Shown here in pieces: positions 1,380 to 18,300 of a stretch of DNA of 22,770 bases. Numbering within the stretch: the stretch's first letter is position 1; each line of letters begins with the position of its first letter. The position numbers were made by a program, and so were the translations under genes. This DNA comes from a virus. Location of the stretch: IMG/VR virus record IMGVR_UViG_3300044613_002876, positions 1 through 22,770 of that record. One strand, 5' to 3'. Under the pieces are notes generated by a model that made no database searches, was not told where the DNA came from, and saw only the letters and a list, made by a program, of their open reading frames with translations.

Positions 1380-1773
1380 ATGTCCATCAACATTGTATAT
1401 TTTTCTAACTATTCTGGAAATACTAAAAGATTGGTAGAAAAAATAAGTGGAGCTGCTACCCGCATTCCTATTGATTGGGACCCTGGCTCTCCTACCGTTG
1501 TTCATAGCGAGTACATACTTGTTGTACCTACTTATGGTGGGGGCAGTGATAAATCTGCAATCCCACGACAGGTTCGACATTTTTTAAATATCGAACAAAA
1601 CAGAGACCTACTACGTGGAGTAATAGGAACTGGAAACACAAACTTTGGGGAACATTTTTGCAAAGCTGCAGAAATGATTTCAAGTAAAACTGGCGTACCG
1701 ATAGTTGCAAAGGTCGAAATCTTTGGGACTGAATATGACGTTGAAAAAATAAAAAAGAGGTTGGAGATACTAT

Positions 1774-1781
<8 letters not shown>
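1380..1781 (+). CDS. nrdI: NrdI, flavodoxin-like activator of class Ib ribonucleotide reductase
   Basis: 133 residues, normal for NrdI. The FMN phosphate-binding loop is [10 protein letters not shown] at residues 8-17, and a second flavin-contact loop is PTYGGGS at about 50-56. In this family NrdI supplies the oxidant that assembles the dimanganese-tyrosyl radical cofactor in NrdF. The gene is preceded by AGGAG (1366-1370) and overlaps nrdE by 8 nt (ATGGATAA), so translation is probably coupled. No nrdH glutaredoxin is present in the window. Confidence 0.93.
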
Positions 1782-4849
<3,068 letters not shown>

Positions 4850-4861
4850 GATAGGAAGTAC

Positions 4862-5242
4862 ATGAAAGAAATCAAACACCTGCACCTAATGGTAAGAGCA
4901 GAAATCACAAACCCAATTAGGACAGAAGAAGATGCAAAAGATTGGCTAAGACGGCTAGTCGATAGAATCGACATGAAGATAGCAGCTGGGCCAATTTCAA
5001 AGTATGTAGATATGCCTGGAAACGAGGGCATAACTGCAACGGTATCAGTAGAGACATCTCATATTGCTTTTCATATTTGGGAAAAGCTTGACCCTATGGT
5101 TATTCAGTTTGACCTGTATACCTGTGGAGACTTAAGCCACATAGACGTTCTAGACTACTTGTCTGAAACCTTTGGCATAGTAGATATGCAGTGGCAGTAT
5201 TTAGATAGACAAAATGGCTTTAAGATCCTAGATCAGTCTTAA
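4862..5242 (+). CDS. S-adenosylmethionine decarboxylase-like protein (SpeD family, phage type)
   Basis: 126 residues. The core matches pyruvoyl-dependent AdoMet decarboxylase: VETSHIAFHIWEK with Ser66 as the expected pyruvoyl-forming residue, His71, and then FDLYTCGD with Cys88. These correspond to Ser63, His68 and Cys83 of the Thermotoga enzyme. The residue before Ser66 is Thr, not the usual Glu. The upstream run DRIDMKIAAGP is like the version found in marine phages and bacteria. The family makes decarboxylated SAM for spermidine synthesis, although some relatives have become ornithine or arginine decarboxylases. It sits 12 nt after nrdF, with AGGA before the ATG, so it is probably in the RNR operon. 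The SpeE-like protein at 12874-13572 could be a partner. Substrate is not certain. Confidence 0.75.
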   Translation: MKEIKHLHLMVRAEITNPIRTEEDAKDWLRRLVDRIDMKIAAGPISKYVDMPGNEGITATVSVETSHIAFHIWEKLDPMVIQFDLYTCGDLSHIDVLDYLSETFGIVDMQWQYLDRQNGFKILDQS

Positions 5243-6376: not shown

Positions 6377-6448
6377 TCCCCCTTAGCTCAATGGCAGAGC
6401 AGAGAGCTGTTAACTCTAAGGTTCGTGGTTCGAATCCACGAGGGGGAG
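6377..6448 (+). tRNA. tRNA-Asn (anticodon GTT)
   Basis: 72 nt cloverleaf. The acceptor TCCCCCT pairs with AGGGGGA, the D arm is GCTC/GAGC, and the T arm is CGTGG-TTCGAAT-CCACG. The anticodon GTT is at 6409-6411. The anticodon stem has one G-A mismatch at its outer pair. CCA is not encoded. Confidence 0.93.
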
Positions 6449-6502
6449 CTAATGGTGTGGCCCATACCACTCTCACGGGTATGAGATAAAAATGGGCATT
6501 AG
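6449..6502 (+). other. Structured spacer between tRNA-Asn and tRNA-Asp
   Basis: Several nested inverted repeats fill the spacer. CTAATG (6449-6454) pairs with CATTAG (6497-6502). GCCCAT (6460-6465) pairs with ATGGGC (6492-6497). CATACC (6463-6468) pairs with GGTATG (6478-6483); it competes for the CAT at 6463-6465 with the second helix. There is no ORF and it does not fold as a tRNA. It could guide tRNA processing or be a remnant of another element. Confidence 0.45.
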
Positions 6503-6575
6503 GCTCCATAGCTCAGTTGGTTAGAGCACTACCCTGTCACGGTAGGGGTCGCCAGTTCAAGTCTGGTTGGAGTCG
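6502..6575 (+). tRNA. tRNA-Asp (anticodon GTC)
   Basis: 74 nt. The acceptor GGCTCCA pairs with TGGAGTC (one G-T pair). The anticodon stem CTACC/GGTAG encloses GTC at 6536-6538. The T arm has the usual TTCAAGT loop and the discriminator is G. CCA is not encoded. The next gene starts 28 nt downstream after a clear AGGAAGG site. Confidence 0.93.
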
Positions 6576-6603
6576 CTGGCAGAAAAGCCAATAGGAAGGA
6601 AAC

Positions 6604-6801
6604 ATGGAAAGCACAAAGAGAAGTTTAATCAAGACACTGAGCTGGGAGTTCGTGCACCTGGTTATCATAGCAGGAGTAATCTTTATAATCACAGGCAAGT
6701 GGGAGTATGCTAGTCTAGGAGCACTTGTTTACATTGCTTGGGAGGCTCTGGCATATTTCATTCATGAGCGTATCTGGGCCAGATTTGTAAAGATTAAGTA
6801 A
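6604..6801 (+). CDS. DUF2061 small membrane protein
   Basis: 65 residues. The start ESTKRSLIKTLSWE and the end FIHERIWARF are the two conserved ends of DUF2061. Two transmembrane segments lie between, at about residues 17-31 and 36-53. The family has no known biochemical role. It lies 15 nt before katG and directly after tRNA-Asp, with AGGAAGGA as ribosome site, so it may be co-expressed with katG. Confidence 0.83.
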   Translation: MESTKRSLIKTLSWEFVHLVIIAGVIFIITGKWEYASLGALVYIAWEALAYFIHERIWARFVKIK

Positions 6802-6816
6802 TTAGAAAGAGATAAT

Positions 6817-8970
6817 ATGGCAGATATTAATGAGTGTCCAGTTGACCACGGTCAGCATGGATCAAAAACAAAAGCTTCAAGTTCAAGAGGCACAACAAAT
6901 AAAGACTGGTGGCCTAATCAAATTTCATTAGAGCCACTGCTTCACAATAATCCTAAGAGCAATCCTATGGATGATGACTTTAACTATGTTGAAGAGTTTA
7001 AGACACTAGACTTGGCAGATGTAAAGAAGGATATTGTTCAAGTCATGAGGACATCGCAAGAGTGGTGGCCTGCAGACTACGGACACTATGGCCCACTGTT
7101 CATTAGAATGGCTTGGCACTCTGCTGGAACATATCGTGTTTCAGATGGCCGTGGAGGTGGCGGACAGGGACTACATCGCTTTGCCCCACTAAACTCCTGG
7201 CCAGACAACATTAACCTAGATAAGGCCCGTAGACTTTTGTGGCCAGTCAAGCAGAAGTACGGTCGCAAACTCAGCTGGGCTGATCTAATGATTCTAGCAG
7301 GGAACGTTGCTCTTGAAGACATGGGCTTCCCTACCTTTGGATTTGCAGGAGGTCGTGAAGATGTCTGGGAGCCAGACAACACCTATTGGGGTGACGAGAC
7401 TGAGTGGCTAGCAAGCAAGCGGTATGACGAGTCAAGAGAAGCAAGCACACTAGAGGATCCTCTTGCTGCAGTGCAGATGGGGCTGATTTATGTAAATCCA
7501 GAAGGACCAGATGGCAATCCAGACTTTAAGCTGGCTGCTGCAGATATTCGTGAGACATTCGGACGAATGGCTATGAATGATGAAGAAACTGTAGCTCTTA
7601 TTGCTGGAGGACACGCATTTGGAAAGACTCATGGAGCGGGACCTGCCTCGCAGGTTGGACCAGAGCCAGAAGCTGTTGACGATCTTGCTGCAGTTGGATT
7701 AGGCTGGAAAAACTCCCAGGGCAAGGGACACTCAGAAGACACCATCTCTTCTGGTCTAGAGGTTACCTGGACGCCAAATCCTACTCAGTGGGATAACGAC
7801 TATCTAAGGCTAATCTATAAGTATGATTGGGTACCAGAAGAATCTCCAGCAGGAGCTAAGCAGTGGGTTCCATCTAACTTTGAGGCACAAGATGCAGCTC
7901 CTCATGCACACCTTGAAGATGTAAAGGTTGTTCCAAGAATGCTTACTACTGACCTTGCGCTAAGGTTTGGTGACGAGGAGTATGACAAGATTTGTAGAAA
8001 GTTCTTGGAAGACTTTGAGTACTTTACAGATGCATTTGCACGTGCATGGTTTAAGCTAACCCACAGAGATATGGGACCAAGATCCAGGTACCACGGCTCA
8101 GAGGTCCCAGCAGAAGTTCTTCTGTGGCAAGATCCTGTGCAGAGTGCACCAGTCCCAGACGAGACCGCCATTGAAAAAGCAAAAAAGCTTATCGATGGCC
8201 TAGACGTTAGCAATGTGGACTTAATTAGGCTTGCCTATGCCTCCGCCTCTACTTACAGAAACACTGACAAGAGGGGCGGTGCAAATGGTGCAAGGATTGC
8301 ATTCTTGCCTCAACGATCATGGCCAGTAAACTCTTCTGTTCTTGCAACTCTAGATGCGGTTCAAGAGGTTCGTAATGAAATGGGAAACCAGATGTCATTG
8401 GCAGACCTGATTGTTTTAGCTGGAACATATGCACTAGAAAAGGCCTCTGATACTCGTGTTGTATTTACTGGTGGTCGTGGAGACGCCACGCAGGAGCTGA
8501 CAGATATAGAGTCATTCAACTATCTATATCCAGTTGCAGATGCATTCGTTAACTGGTCTCATAAAGAGTTTGCTGATTCATTAGACAAGTCATTAATTGA
8601 AAAGGCAACCTTGCTAGGTCTTACTCCTCCAGAGATGACAGCTCTTTATGGAGGACTACGATCTTTGGGAATCCCGTCTAACGGTAGGGGCGTCCTAACA
8701 GACAATCCAGGAACTCTGTCTAACGACTTCTTTATTAATGTCCTAGATATGAATACTGAGTGGAAGGCATCTGAGGATAGCCTATACAACGGCTTCGACC
8801 GTAAGACAAGGGACCTTAAGTGGACCGCTACAAGATCAGATATGGTATTTGCTTCAAACTCTGTACTAAGGGCTTACTGCGAAGTATACGCCTCAAGCGA
8901 TGGACTAGAAAAGCTAAAGAAAGACTTTTCTAAAGTTTGGACAAAGCTGATGAATTCCGACTTGTTCTAA
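6817..8970 (+). CDS. katG: Catalase-peroxidase KatG
   Basis: 717 residues, full length with both the catalytic N-terminal and the degenerate C-terminal peroxidase domain. It converts hydrogen peroxide to water and oxygen and has peroxidase activity, using heme b in the cytoplasm. Distal heme residues are Arg97, Trp100 and His101 ([11 protein letters not shown]) and the proximal ligand is His266 ([10 protein letters not shown]). The covalent Met-Tyr-Trp adduct needed for catalase activity is complete: Trp100, Tyr225 (LIYVNPEG) and Met251 (RMAMND), with the same spacings as the mycobacterial enzyme. There is no signal peptide. The gene, with DUF2061, sits between two tRNA pairs. KatG is very unusual in a phage, and the protein looks functional, not decayed. 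Base use resembles the neighbouring genes. Confidence 0.97.
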
Positions 8971-9006: not shown

Positions 9007-9078
<72 letters not shown>

Positions 9079-9081
9079 CAG

Positions 9082-9157
9082 GGTCCGTTGGAGTAGTGGT
9101 TATCTCGTCTGCCTTTCACGCAGAAGAACACGGGTTCAAGTCCCGTACGGACTGCCA
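9082..9157 (+). tRNA. tRNA-Glu (anticodon TTC)
   Basis: 76 nt including an encoded CCA end (9155-9157), the only one of the four tRNAs with CCA. The acceptor GGTCCGT pairs with ACGGACT (one G-T pair). The anticodon stem TCTGC/GCAGA encloses TTC at 9115-9117. It lies 3 nt after tRNA-Thr, so the two are surely co-transcribed. Confidence 0.93.
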
Positions 9158-9814: not shown

Positions 9815-11647
9815 ATTAAAAATAAAGTAGGAAGAATTATCGCTGCCCTTACCCTGGCATTCTTTCCAGTGTTTGGCATATCCGATATTGCAAATGCAAA
9901 TTGCGTAAACCCAGGTCAGGTAGCTGCTGTAGCAGCTGCACAACAGGCCTCTTCATCTGAGCCAGTGGTTGTAGAAATCAACACCTGTGGTGGAGACGAT
10001 GTCTCTTATCAGGTCCCACTGTCCGTCAATGTTACATTTGATGGAGTAAGCTATAACAGCATCTATGCCACAACAAATTCAGTAATCACCTTTGGCAGGC
10101 CAGACGGTACTTATTGGACCTACCCAAGCACACCTTCGATTTCACTATACTCTTTTGACTGGGTGGTATACCCACAATGGAGAAGCGATGAGCACTTAAT
10201 CATTAGATCTTCTGATGGAGGGTTCCAGGTAGATATTTCTGCCAGACCTATCTGGCTACAAAATACGCCAGAGCCAACTAATATCGTCATTACAGCTGCC
10301 ATTCTTTCAGACGGTACGGTAGCCATGGCTTACACTTTAAGTGGCCCAGAATATCCACAGAATAATCCAAGAACTGGTGTGCGTCTAAACGATGGAACTG
10401 TTGTAGACTTTGAAACATATGGAATTCAGGAAACAGAAGAGACTCCAGAGCTAGCACCAGAGCCAACTACTGAATCGCCCTTTGTTCCAGAGCCAACTCC
10501 AACACCCACAGAATCCCCTACAGTATCCCCAGAGCCAACTCCAACACCCACAGAATCCCCTACAGTATCCCCAGAACCAACTCCTACGCCCACAGAGTCT
10601 CCAACACCAACTCCTACCCCATCTGTAAGTGCTCCAGTTGTTCCAGAAGGTGCCACAGTAGTTCAGGAAAACTCTAGCTTTTCAGTAGTTGCCCCACAAG
10701 GACAAAGAGTTGCAAGCGTTTCGGGATATTACGGAGACCCTGATGACGGAACTCGTGGCCAAGACGTTTCATCAATTTTATTTGACCTAATTGGCGGATC
10801 AACCTCTGCAACAGTTGAGGTATCAAATATTGTATTTGGAAACGATCCAGCACCTGGAACCCCAAAAGTTCTTATTCTTCTTGTAGTTTACGAGGATATT
10901 CCAGTTACTCCAGCTCCTACTCCTGAGCCAACGCCTGAACCTACCCCAGTTCTTCCTGTCGTACCGCCCGTTGAACCTGTCGTACCGCCAACCATACCAG
11001 TAGTCCCAGAGCCAGAACCGTCCCTGGAACCAGTGCCAGAAGAAACGACCACACCAGAGCCAGTGGAACCAGTGCAACCAGAAGAGCCAACCACAGAACC
11101 TGTAGAGCCCTCTCCAGAGCCTGTTGAACCAGGGCCTTTGCCTGAGCCATCTCCTGAGCCAGTTGATCCTGAACCTTCACCTGAACCATCTCCTTCTGAA
11201 GAAGAGTCTATCACATCTGCCGAAGATTTACCAGTAGACATTTCGCCAGAAGAGCTTATGTCGGTAAACTTGGAAGAGATCGTGCCAACAGAGCTGACTG
11301 CTGAACAAGCAGAAGCGCTAGTTGAGGCAGCCCTAGCGGTCTTTGAGACAGCAGAGCAGGGTTCTGAAGAATATGAGCAGGCCCTAGAAGCCTTAATGGT
11401 TGCAGCTCAGCAAGATGACATTGTATTAGACGAGTCCCTTGCAGCTGTGCCTCTCCTAGGAGATGCCCTTGAGGGGGCTGTAGAGCTTGTAAACTTTTTG
11501 GGTAATGCTGGAGCAGACATGAGTCCGCAAGTTAGAGAAACTTCGGAGAAGGTAGTGGTTACAGCAATTGTTGCAGTCCAGGCAGCACTGTCTGCAATCT
11601 CTATAAGTGGAATTGCAACTACAATAAACATAAGGAACGGATCATAA
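9815..11647 (+). CDS. Large secreted Pro/Thr/Glu-rich protein, probably starting at ATT
   Basis: About 610 residues. The first ATG/GTG-type start in frame is GTG 9869, but that would remove most of the signal peptide. Reading back in frame to ATT 9815 gives [20 protein letters not shown], a proper Sec signal cleaved after ANA, and TGGAG lies 9 nt before the ATT. Residues ~50-200 look like a beta-sandwich domain. A Thr-Pro linker of 14-residue repeats follows (~205-275), then a second small beta domain (~280-365), a Pro/Glu/Val-rich linker (~370-465), and an acidic helical end with a final hydrophobic segment that could insert in a membrane. No sorting motif. Function unknown; surface attachment or host-envelope interaction is plausible. 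A hairpin (TCTTAT/ATAAGA, 9763-9779) and a TATAAT (9765-9770) lie upstream. Confidence 0.72.
10487..10602 (+). repeat. 42-bp tandem repeat coding for a Thr-Pro linker
   Basis: Two identical 42-bp units (10487-10528 and 10529-10570) are followed by a third, diverged unit. Each codes for [14 protein letters not shown]. The exact identity of the first two units suggests recent duplication or slippage, so linker length may vary between related phages. Confidence 0.85.
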
Positions 11648-12897: not shown

Positions 12898-13572
12898 GTA
12901 TAAGTATAGATATTGAACTATTTTTTCCTGCTCAATACTTAAAAGATACTCATTTCCCTCAAAATAATCCTTAATAAAGTCTTGCCATTTTTTATAAACT
13001 TCTGACGGATTTTCTGAGAGCATTAGGGCAATGTCTTTTGTGTGTTCATTTTTAGGGTAGACCTTTTTAAAAAACAACAACTCTATAGACCATGGCCAGA
13101 AGTGCTTGTGCTTTATTCTTTTTGAAATAGCGTTCATGTCGTTTACCTTCCACTCCCAGGTCTGTTTTTCATAATGATCTGGCAGCAGACAATCATACTC
13201 TTCTTCTGGGGCATATGTTGTAGCGTCATCTTTAATAATCTTAACTTTGTCGCTTACCCTGTTATTCTTTAAAAAAGCATCAATAATATCCTGCTCTTTT
13301 TCGATAACAGTAATTGATTCTACTTCTTGTTTTGCGTCTAGGGCTTTGAGCAAGATACCAAAGCCAAGCCCAGTAATCAGAACACGGCCATGGGCAATTT
13401 CATACTGAGAGTATAGGTTATCAAAGGCATCGGAGAAATCTGCAAAAACCCCCATCCACTGAACATTATCATAATACAAACGGTACGATCTATCTGTGTG
13501 AGAGAAGGATATCTTTACCCTGCCATATGTTCCAGGCACTATTCTGGGTATGTTCGCTAAGTTAAGAGACAT
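12874..13572 (-). CDS. Rossmann-fold methyltransferase / spermidine-synthase-like protein
   Basis: 232 residues from ATG 13572, chosen because a TGATATAAT box lies 7 nt upstream; a longer frame reaching 13680 would run through that promoter and the divergent gene. The nucleotide-binding loop is GRVLITGLGFGILLKAL (~80-96), followed by the acidic strand end SITVIEKEQDII and a further KDDATTY... YDCLLPDHYE region, the order seen in spermidine synthase and related SAM-dependent enzymes. The key Asp-rich catalytic motif of true SpeE is only partly matched. It is the only minus-strand gene in the middle of the window. With the SpeD-like protein it may form a polyamine step; otherwise it is a methyltransferase of unknown target. 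Confidence 0.68.
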   Translation of the reverse strand: MSLNLANIPRIVPGTYGRVKISFSHTDRSYRLYYDNVQWMGVFADFSDAFDNLYSQYEIAHGRVLITGLGFGILLKALDAKQEVESITVIEKEQDIIDAFLKNNRVSDKVKIIKDDATTYAPEEEYDCLLPDHYEKQTWEWKVNDMNAISKRIKHKHFWPWSIELLFFKKVYPKNEHTKDIALMLSENPSEVYKKWQDFIKDYFEGNEYLLSIEQEKIVQYLYLYKKHYPYR

Positions 13573-13579
13573 ATCTACA

Positions 13580-13588
13580 ATTATATCA
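13580..13588 (-). promoter_or_regulatory. Extended -10 promoter of the minus-strand methyltransferase gene
   Basis: On the minus strand TGATATAAT, 7 nt before ATG 13572. The mRNA would begin at or next to the ATG. It is 24 nt from the divergent plus-strand box at 13612-13620, and the same nine bases occur in both. Confidence 0.6.
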
Positions 13589-13611
13589 TTCGACAGGATT
13601 TTTATTATTAA

Positions 13612-13620
13612 TGATATAAT
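13612..13620 (+). promoter_or_regulatory. Extended -10 promoter of the endolysin gene
   Basis: TGATATAAT, start point expected near 13627, followed by GAGGAG (13627-13632) and ATG 13640. This gene therefore has a very short leader with a good ribosome site, unlike the leaderless ones. Confidence 0.6.
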
Positions 13621-13639
13621 TATTTTGAGGAGATATATT

Positions 13640-14464
13640 ATGACTACACCAAGACTACCGCTTTCTGGAAAGCCAGGCAAAGACTGGAAAGTGACAAGCT
13701 ACATGGGCTGGAGAATACACCCAGTTCATAAGACTAAAAAGCATCACAACGGCACAGACATTATCTATACTAATAAAAAGGATAACAGAATTTACGCACC
13801 CTACGCTGGAACTGTTACGTACGCTGGGCCATCAAAAACTAAGAAAGATAACGGGGAGCCAGGCGGGTTCGGCTACTACGTAAAGATTACCCACAACATT
13901 AATGGAGAATTCTATAGCTCTCTATATGCTCACCTAGAAAAAGGATCTTTTGAGGTTAAGCAGGGAGATAAGGTAAAGCCAGGAGACGTTCTGGGCGTAA
14001 TGGGGACCAGTGGCATGAGTACTGGAGTACACTTGCACTGGGAAATCTGGAAGGGCCAGTCCCATGGTTGGACAGACAACGGCAAGGGCTTTGTTGAGCC
14101 TATTGAGTTTATGAATGCAGTTATTGCCTTAAATGGTGCAGCAGCATACGCAGATGTTGCATCAACTAGTTCAAACAAGGCATCCTCTCCAGTAACACCT
14201 GGGGCATCTGTAAAAGTTGACCCACCAGCTTCTCTATCTGACAAGCCAAAGTCTGCCCCCAAGGCGTCGGTACAGCCAGCAACCAAGAAGCCTGCCACCA
14301 AGCCAGCAGCAAAGAAGTCAACAAAAACTCATAGTGTTGTTCATGGAGAAACTCTTACTGGCATTGCTCGCAAGTATAAAACAACTGTGGAAGCCCTTGT
14401 AAAGATTAATGGCATCAAAAACCCAAATCTAATACTTGTTGGTCAAGTAATTAAGCTCCCATAG
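13640..14464 (+). CDS. M23 endopeptidase with LysM domain (endolysin-like)
   Basis: 274 residues. M23 zinc ligands are seen as His36-x3-Asp40 (HHNGTD) and His133 in HLHWE (His131 also conserved), with Tyr-Ala-His98 as the further active-site element. The catalytic domain spans ~15-165. A Pro/Lys/Ala-rich linker (~170-228) leads to a C-terminal LysM domain (HSVVHGETLTGIARKYKTTV, ~229-274) that binds peptidoglycan. It should cut cross-links in the host wall at lysis. There is no signal peptide, so export would need a holin; a holin-like gene follows. The GAGGAG site supports ATG 13640. A longer frame upstream overlaps the divergent gene and is not used. Confidence 0.9.
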   Translation: MTTPRLPLSGKPGKDWKVTSYMGWRIHPVHKTKKHHNGTDIIYTNKKDNRIYAPYAGTVTYAGPSKTKKDNGEPGGFGYYVKITHNINGEFYSSLYAHLEKGSFEVKQGDKVKPGDVLGVMGTSGMSTGVHLHWEIWKGQSHGWTDNGKGFVEPIEFMNAVIALNGAAAYADVASTSSNKASSPVTPGASVKVDPPASLSDKPKSAPKASVQPATKKPATKPAAKKSTKTHSVVHGETLTGIARKYKTTVEALVKINGIKNPNLILVGQVIKLP

Positions 14465-14567: not shown

Positions 14568-14894
14568 ATGAATCTAACACCAGAAGTTCGAAAGTCAATT
14601 TATGGACTTGTTGCTGCAGGAGTTCCTGTGCTAGTTATTATCGGAGCAATCAGCGACGATGTTGCACAGCAGGTTCTAACAATTGCAGCTGCTGTACTAG
14701 CAGTGGGAGGATCTTCCCTGGCTTTTGCTAACGTAACTCCGTCTAAGAACAAGGACCTTGGAAAGGCCATCGTAGATGTCGTAGAGGCCGTTCAGAAGTC
14801 TGCTGGAACTGGCAAGGTTGCGTCTTCGGATATCAAGAAGCCAGCCGCTAAGAAGGCCACAGCTTCAACTAAAAAGGCTTCCCCAAAGAAGTAA
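14568..14894 (+). CDS. Holin-like membrane protein
   Basis: 108 residues. The start MNLTPEVRKSIYGLVAAGVP resembles small membrane proteins found beside endolysins in mycobacteriophages and related actinophages. Two hydrophobic helices lie at ~12-28 and ~32-56. The tail is Lys/Ala/Pro-rich (KKPAAKKATASTKKASPKK), strongly basic as in many holins. It follows the M23 endolysin but has its own promoter, so timing may be set separately. Holin function is inferred from topology and position. Confidence 0.72.
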   Translation: MNLTPEVRKSIYGLVAAGVPVLVIIGAISDDVAQQVLTIAAAVLAVGGSSLAFANVTPSKNKDLGKAIVDVVEAVQKSAGTGKVASSDIKKPAAKKATASTKKASPKK

Positions 14895-16501: not shown

Positions 16502-16720
16502 ATGTTAGTAAAGTCTCTTGAAAAGATGGAATCAATCGTTCGAGGCAACAAGAGGTTGTCCTGGGATGGATGGGATGTAATTCTAAGAATTCCAGACTAC
16601 TCTGCTTGGAAGAAGCGTGATGGAGTTTTAGTATCTGGAAAGTGGTATGTTCAAAAAAGATACCCAGTTTCTGAAAAGGGATGGTCTGTACCAGAGGGAT
16701 TCCTAAACAAAAATGGATAG
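16502..16720 (+). CDS. Conserved phage hypothetical protein (DGWDV type)
   Basis: 72 residues from ATG 16502, which follows AGGAAAG; an in-frame ATG at 16466 would add 12 residues. The core SLEKMESIVRGNKRLSWDGW and SGKWYVQKRYPVSEKGW is a pattern often met in actinophage genomes; no function is known. Rich in Trp and basic residues, perhaps nucleic-acid binding. A TATAAT lies at 16441-16446. It overlaps whiB by 8 nt (ATGGATAG). Confidence 0.72.
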   Translation: MLVKSLEKMESIVRGNKRLSWDGWDVILRIPDYSAWKKRDGVLVSGKWYVQKRYPVSEKGWSVPEGFLNKNG

Positions 16721-17003
16721 TGGCAAGTGGAAAGATGATTCCTCTTGTCGTGATTATGATACTAATTTATTTTTTGATACATACGAAGAAGACGAACTCT
16801 TACGTCCAGCTATAGACCAGCTTTGTTCTGGGTGCCCAGTAGCAAGGCAGTGTTTTGCTGTGGGCATCTCACAGAAAGAGTGGGGTGTTTGGGGTGGTGT
16901 ATACCTAGAAGCTGGAAAAATATCAAAAGAATTTAATCGTCATAGAAATAAGAAGGACTGGGCAAAAACCTGGGAAGTTCTTACAATGGATAAGGGGAAG
17001 TAA
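16713..17003 (+). CDS. WhiB-family iron-sulfur transcription regulator
   Basis: 96 residues. The four cluster ligands are Cys12, Cys38, Cys41 and Cys47 (C...C-x2-C-x5-C) and the GVWGG turn is at 58-62, followed by a basic segment (EFNRHRNKKDWAK) for DNA contact. WhiB proteins occur only in actinobacteria and their phages; they bind a 4Fe-4S cluster, often partner the main sigma factor and respond to redox or nitric oxide. A phage copy could redirect host transcription or block a host WhiB. Coupled by an 8-nt overlap to the gene before it. Confidence 0.92.
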   Translation: MDSGKWKDDSSCRDYDTNLFFDTYEEDELLRPAIDQLCSGCPVARQCFAVGISQKEWGVWGGVYLEAGKISKEFNRHRNKKDWAKTWEVLTMDKGK

Positions 17004-17845: not shown

Positions 17846-17901
17846 TAACATGCCTGCCATTTGGGGGCAATTAACTCGCTTAATATAAGGAGATGATACA
17901 T

Positions 17902-18300
17902 ATGGTTATTTTTAATGACCCATTTATTGGAAACCTTGCTCAGGAATTTGAGAAGGTATTCTACACAGGACAGCCATCAAAGGCAACTTACCCACCATAC
18001 AACGTCAACAAAATCTCAGACGAACACTACGTCTTAGAGTTTGCCGTTGCTGGATTTAACCAGAAAGGCATTGATATCTCGGTAGAGAAGGACGTGCTAA
18101 CAGTTAAGGGTGAGCGTCAGGAGGACGAGGGTGCCAACTATGTTCACAAGGGCATTGCGGGACGCAAGTTCTCACGATCATTTAGTCTGCCAGAATACTT
18201 TGAGGTAGACAGGGCATCTATGATTGATGGAATCTTGTACATTGATTTGTACAAGCGTGTTCCAGAAGAAAAGAAGCCAAAGAAAATAGAAATCAGTTAG
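17902..18300 (+). CDS. Small heat shock protein Hsp20
   Basis: 132 residues from ATG 17902, chosen because AAGGAG lies 9 nt upstream; ATG 17893 is too close to it. The alpha-crystallin domain runs from about residue 25: YVLEFAVAGFNQKGIDISVE, LTVKGER, then GRKFSRSFSLPEYFEVDRAS and the dimer-interface strand IDGILYIDLYKRVPEEKKPKK. Hsp20 proteins hold unfolding proteins for refolding. The C-terminal IxI tail motif reads IEIS. Phage hsp20 genes are known mainly from cyanophages. It has its own promoter and terminator. Confidence 0.93.
   Translation: MVIFNDPFIGNLAQEFEKVFYTGQPSKATYPPYNVNKISDEHYVLEFAVAGFNQKGIDISVEKDVLTVKGERQEDEGANYVHKGIAGRKFSRSFSLPEYFEVDRASMIDGILYIDLYKRVPEEKKPKKIEIS

Follow-up and report, generated by a model that had tools for sequence, protein, structure and literature searches.

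KatG is a bifunctional haem catalase-peroxidase, and the likely role of this enzyme is the removal of peroxide. Peroxide limits the culture of the dominant freshwater actinobacteria. Cultures of the acI group required added catalase, and KatG has been described as a common good (PMC7527133). The KatG of the acI bacterium 'Ca. Planktophila rubra' contains all known active-site residues, yet was reported to provide no functional catalase, and haem synthesis is unrecorded in acI (PMC7527133). On the viral side, katG has been reported on viral contigs from Lake Mendota (Zhou et al., as cited in PMC12713726) and from the Elbe estuary (PMC13390420). PMC6802176 lists oxidative-stress genes of freshwater phages, with KatG or catalase unnamed in its main text, and the description of two cultured acI phages of ~39 kb each (PMC10202952) leaves katG unmentioned. 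Because the Lake Mendota and Elbe reports precede this analysis, the gene described here adds to a viral katG that is already in the literature; what is added is a virus-specific lineage and a placement within tRNA arrays. The window, i.e. the entire stretch of 22,770 nucleotides that was analyzed, spans positions 1 to 22,770 of the IMG/VR record IMGVR_UViG_3300044613_002876.

Distribution of katG among viruses

Among 50,697 phage records, only seven matched KatG, all with ~54% identity or less, and none of these is established as a genuine phage: they comprise two contigs of Salmonella genomes, three short pieces of E. coli or Salmonella phage records that lack annotation, and two Acinetobacter entries. 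A single scan of IMG/VR, for comparison, yielded 145 katG loci. The view that katG is very rare in phages, expressed in an earlier note on this DNA, thus holds for the isolate records but not for environmental viruses. Of the 145 loci, 80 were retrieved, and 77 of the encoded proteins fall into virus-specific clades; the other three (L072, L073 and L078) group with cellular KatG.

Some of the katG-carrying contigs, together with one terminase relative, also encode tmRNAs, with tag peptides such as ANSQSAFALAA. These phage-encoded tmRNA genes are located at 10089-10419 in L005, 8476-8807 in L006, 6057-6357 in L009, 9409-9707 in L024, 15926-16256 in L036 and 11165 (minus strand) in L308.

The katG gene and its product

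The katG reading frame of the window (6817-8970, plus strand) encodes 717 amino acids with no internal stops; the span 6604-8970 originally given corresponds to katG together with the adjacent DUF2061 gene. Domain search identifies two copies of PF00141, i.e. the duplicated peroxidase domain. The protein clears the cut-offs of the KatG models of NCBI at the equivalog and subfamily levels: it scores 970.5 bits with TIGR00198 (cut-off 770.25; residues 19-717) and 1052.1 bits with NF011635 (cut-off 981).

The key residues were located by aligning the protein to solved KatG structures, with the B. pseudomallei numbering as the reference. On the distal side of the haem, R108, W111 and H112 of the reference correspond to R97, W100 and H101, and D141 of the reference corresponds to D130. 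The reference residues Y238, M264, H279 and W330 are matched by Y225, M251, H266 and W318, and D389 and R426 by D379 and R417. Accordingly, the proximal His-Trp-Asp of the haem pocket (H266, W318, D379), the Met-Tyr-Trp residues (M251, Y225 and W100, whose cross-link is itself invisible in sequence) and the Arg switch (R417) are all in place. The haem-pocket residues R97, W100, H101, H266, W318 and D379 are invariant across 229 aligned sequences, and the 10 key catalytic positions of the haem pocket, the Met-Tyr-Trp triad and the Arg switch are identical in the window and in all 76 of its viral-clade relatives. Judged by the models and by every residue examined, the ORF reads as a complete, full-length KatG with intact haem and Met-Tyr-Trp residues, as originally proposed. 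Intact residues do not prove activity, however, given that the KatG of 'Ca. Planktophila rubra' is reported to be non-functional as a catalase.

The dN/dS ratio of katG is 0.08 in the comparison with L004, a 75.7 kb contig that is the diverged relative of the window, and ~0.08-0.11 wherever it is computable, these values being approximate because dS is at least 1.7, with synonymous sites near saturation. The low ratio to L004 points to maintenance of the protein and indicates that katG is under purifying selection. The AlphaFold model, built from a shallow alignment, is weak (pLDDT 67.8) and adds little; its top hits in the PDB are KatG structures throughout, yet at a TM score of 0.47 and an rmsd of 22. 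The counts of promoter and terminator motifs that could belong to katG are no higher than in shuffled sequence, and the search for direct repeats around the gene, as a possible scar of mobility, found no exact ones of at least 9 bp.

Viral origin of the window

The possibility that the contig is an assembly chimera, or host DNA wrongly called viral, is brought up by the three IMG/VR katG contigs whose KatG groups with cellular homologs, and for these three host contamination is retained as an explanation. For the window, the evidence is of a different kind. The entire window is found at 100% identity within a separate IMG/VR record of 72,326 bp, possibly the same population assembled a second time and thus not fully independent. 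In L004, whose source metagenome is not that of the 72 kb record, the region is ~80% identical and katG, at the same locus, is 81% identical. A chimeric joint at 6600 or 8970, which the earlier note named as the observation that would undermine its case, is therefore very unlikely, and with phage genes on both sides of katG host contamination is rejected as well; taken together, we put the chance of either artefact close to nil. The requested check of the flanks accordingly places katG in genuine viral DNA.

The 72 kb contig encodes a DnaE-like polymerase that is closest to those of Streptomyces phages (55%), a UvsX-like recombinase, a terminase and tail proteins. In the window, all on the plus strand, domain and model searches identify a class Ib ribonucleotide reductase, with the flavodoxin gene nrdI (1380..1781), the large subunit gene nrdE (1774..3888) and the small subunit gene nrdF (3899..4849). 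The phage context includes an endolysin-like protein with M23 peptidase and LysM domains (13550..14464) and a holin-like protein (14568..14894); a WhiB-like regulator, a marker of actinophages, is encoded at 16713..17003 (PF02467, 46.3 bits), and an SNase is encoded as well.

Several further features of the window were observed. A gene for an AdoMet decarboxylase-like enzyme of the polyamine pathway (4862-5242) adjoins nrdF, and an Hsp20/alpha-crystallin gene (17893-18300) is a second stress-related gene of this phage. Two tandem repeats, of 42 bp (10487-10596) and 39 bp (11105-11194), lengths that are both divisible by three, lie inside the gene for a 592-amino acid unknown protein, which is placed differently in the relatives.

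The tRNA array

Upstream of katG, the tRNA array includes tRNA-Asn (GTT, 6377..6449) and tRNA-Asp (GTC, 6502..6576), followed by the gene for a small membrane protein of 65 amino acids (6604..6801; DUF2061, PF09834, E-value 3.3e-12). Downstream, tRNA-Thr (TGT, 9007..9079) starts 36 bp after katG and is followed by tRNA-Glu (TTC, 9082..9157); all these genes are on the plus strand, and the tRNAs were identified with ARAGORN and Rfam. The adjacency of the DUF2061 gene and katG between two tRNA pairs, as described earlier, is thus present in the window, but the pair is not conserved. In L004, tRNA genes stand between the two genes, with tRNA-Thr and tRNA-Glu upstream of katG, unlike in the window, and DUF2061 is also found in contigs without detected katG. 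The DUF2061 protein was therefore dropped as a functional partner and is considered a neighbor.

Association with tRNA genes extends beyond this locus. Of 25 dereplicated contigs with tRNAs, 19 have a tRNA gene no more than 200 bp from katG, where random placement would give 0.84; since the contigs are related to one another, the probability calculated for this excess is not to be taken literally. The gene order near katG varies among many of the katG contigs. Furthermore, among 18 loci from close relatives with nrdF, tRNA-Asn and tRNA-Thr, 16 are without katG, the two that carry it being the 72 kb contig that includes the window and the contig of L004. The frequent adjacency to tRNAs, combined with the sporadic presence at the same site in close relatives, bears out the cargo-like character proposed for this site and indicates that actinophage tRNA arrays carry katG as optional cargo.

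Phylogeny of viral KatG

The closest full-length cellular KatGs are ~60-62% identical to the window protein, among the matches listed. In a FastTree phylogeny of 229 sequences, which omits the identical L003 copy, the window protein, 76 of the 79 other viral KatGs and one sequence from an acI-family genome form a clade with support of 0.99. IQ-TREE analysis of 92 sequences under a mixture model resolves two viral clades, each with support of 100: clade I, which includes the window, and clade II, which adjoins the acI-family genome sequence (L406). The comparison with host KatG suggested by the earlier note thus places viral KatGs in two supported, largely virus-specific clades. Constraining all viral KatGs to stay together improves the likelihood by 27.5 units (p-AU 0.754), so a single virus lineage is allowed by the data and fits better but is not proven; both trees are quick searches, and L057/L058 form a long branch.

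The second viral clade is nearest to acI group A KatG, with 65-69% identity. The L406 gene (8978-11137), whose product lies beside clade II, is on an acI-family genome contig that was rejected as viral given its cellular genes (ABC transporter, PEP-utilising enzyme, BenE, CobS) and the lack of a match among phage records. With an acI-family KatG on a contig of cellular genes, exchange of KatG between cells and viruses, in either direction, is likely in this part of the tree. Within the same contigs, KatG is less similar than NrdE and NrdF, most clearly in L057 (53% versus 85%), which suggests that KatG was acquired separately, was replaced or changes faster. A broader scenario, which we offer tentatively and consider possible but doubtful, is that actinophages possess their own old KatG lineage that derives from one acquisition from an actinobacterial ancestor, spread via phage tRNA arrays and helps hosts that have lost their own KatG, or have an inactive one, to resist peroxide.

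Host and proposed role

WhiB is encoded in the window and in its two long relatives (the 72 kb contig and L004); among the 16 long katG contigs checked, 14 have it. Together with the DnaE-like polymerase, this regulator makes an actinobacterium the most likely host. The narrower assignment to freshwater acI, made in the earlier note, fares less well: acI is one plausible candidate, but an acI KatG clearly stands out as the nearest cellular relative solely for the second viral clade, not for that of the window. Besides, only 3 of 101 acI-family genomes contain a strong match to the phage class Ib NrdE, which either weakens the case for acI as the host or implies that the reductase came from elsewhere.

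The reading that we favor, and regard with considerable confidence, is that the window katG is a phage auxiliary metabolic gene for a haem catalase-peroxidase, carried as optional cargo in an actinophage tRNA array and protective in infection. Here we infer expression, haem loading and activity, as well as a benefit for phage or host and the precise identity of the host. The gene would be translated in the host during infection, and the protein would take up host or scavenged haem; in acI, without recorded haem synthesis, this would have to be scavenged haem. The Met-Tyr-Trp cofactor would then form, and the enzyme would break down hydrogen peroxide in the infected cell, so that host metabolism and the supply of phage DNA precursors by the class Ib ribonucleotide reductase could be kept running until lysis. 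KatG thus probably protects the infected cell from hydrogen peroxide.

Other roles can be envisaged for the same protein. It might be kept for a peroxidase or another side activity and not for catalase, an explanation put forward for the acI enzyme with its low activity; a related acI group A enzyme is reported to be inactive as a catalase (PMC7527133). The invariance in the viral clade of the Met-Tyr-Trp triad and the Arg switch, which are needed for catalase, argues against this, but the same residues are invariant in acI group A too, which weakens the counterpoint; on balance, we find this explanation unlikely. Alternatively, KatG could serve in counter-defence, clearing an oxidative burst mounted by the host against infection. 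The patchy presence of katG among close relatives, typical of genes under host-specific selection, and the Hsp20 gene of the phage are compatible with such a role, but a defence system or peroxide burst is not known for this phage-host case, and we deem it improbable.

The main benefit could also come after lysis, with released KatG lowering external peroxide for susceptible neighbors as a public good. This possibility draws on the catalase requirement of acI cultures and on the notion of KatG as a common good noted above (PMC7527133), but the cost would be borne by the phage while all neighbors gain, and it presumes an acI host, itself only plausible; we consider it quite improbable. Protection of the infected cell remains the preferred reading. 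The conserved actinophage KatG lineage makes virus-supplied catalase in infection testable, and the viral set offers clean sequences with which to assay activity and map transcripts.

Comparison with known KatG systems

With bacterial KatG (HPI, TIGR00198; B. pseudomallei structures, e.g. 5l05), the window protein shares the two-domain length, the haem ligand, the distal Arg-Trp-His, the Met-Tyr-Trp residues and the Arg switch, but its identity to the full-length cellular KatGs among the matches listed does not exceed ~60-62%. The acI (Nanopelagicales) group A KatG, e.g. that of IMCC25003, is among the nearest cellular relatives but forms its own cellular clade apart from the viral clades. The katG genes on viral contigs of Lake Mendota (work of Zhou et al., described in PMC12713726) and of the Elbe estuary (PMC13390420) likewise come from fresh or low-salinity water; in the accessible parts of these sources, they are described without a tRNA-array site, a virus-specific clade or a link to WhiB, the features that characterize the lineage presented here.
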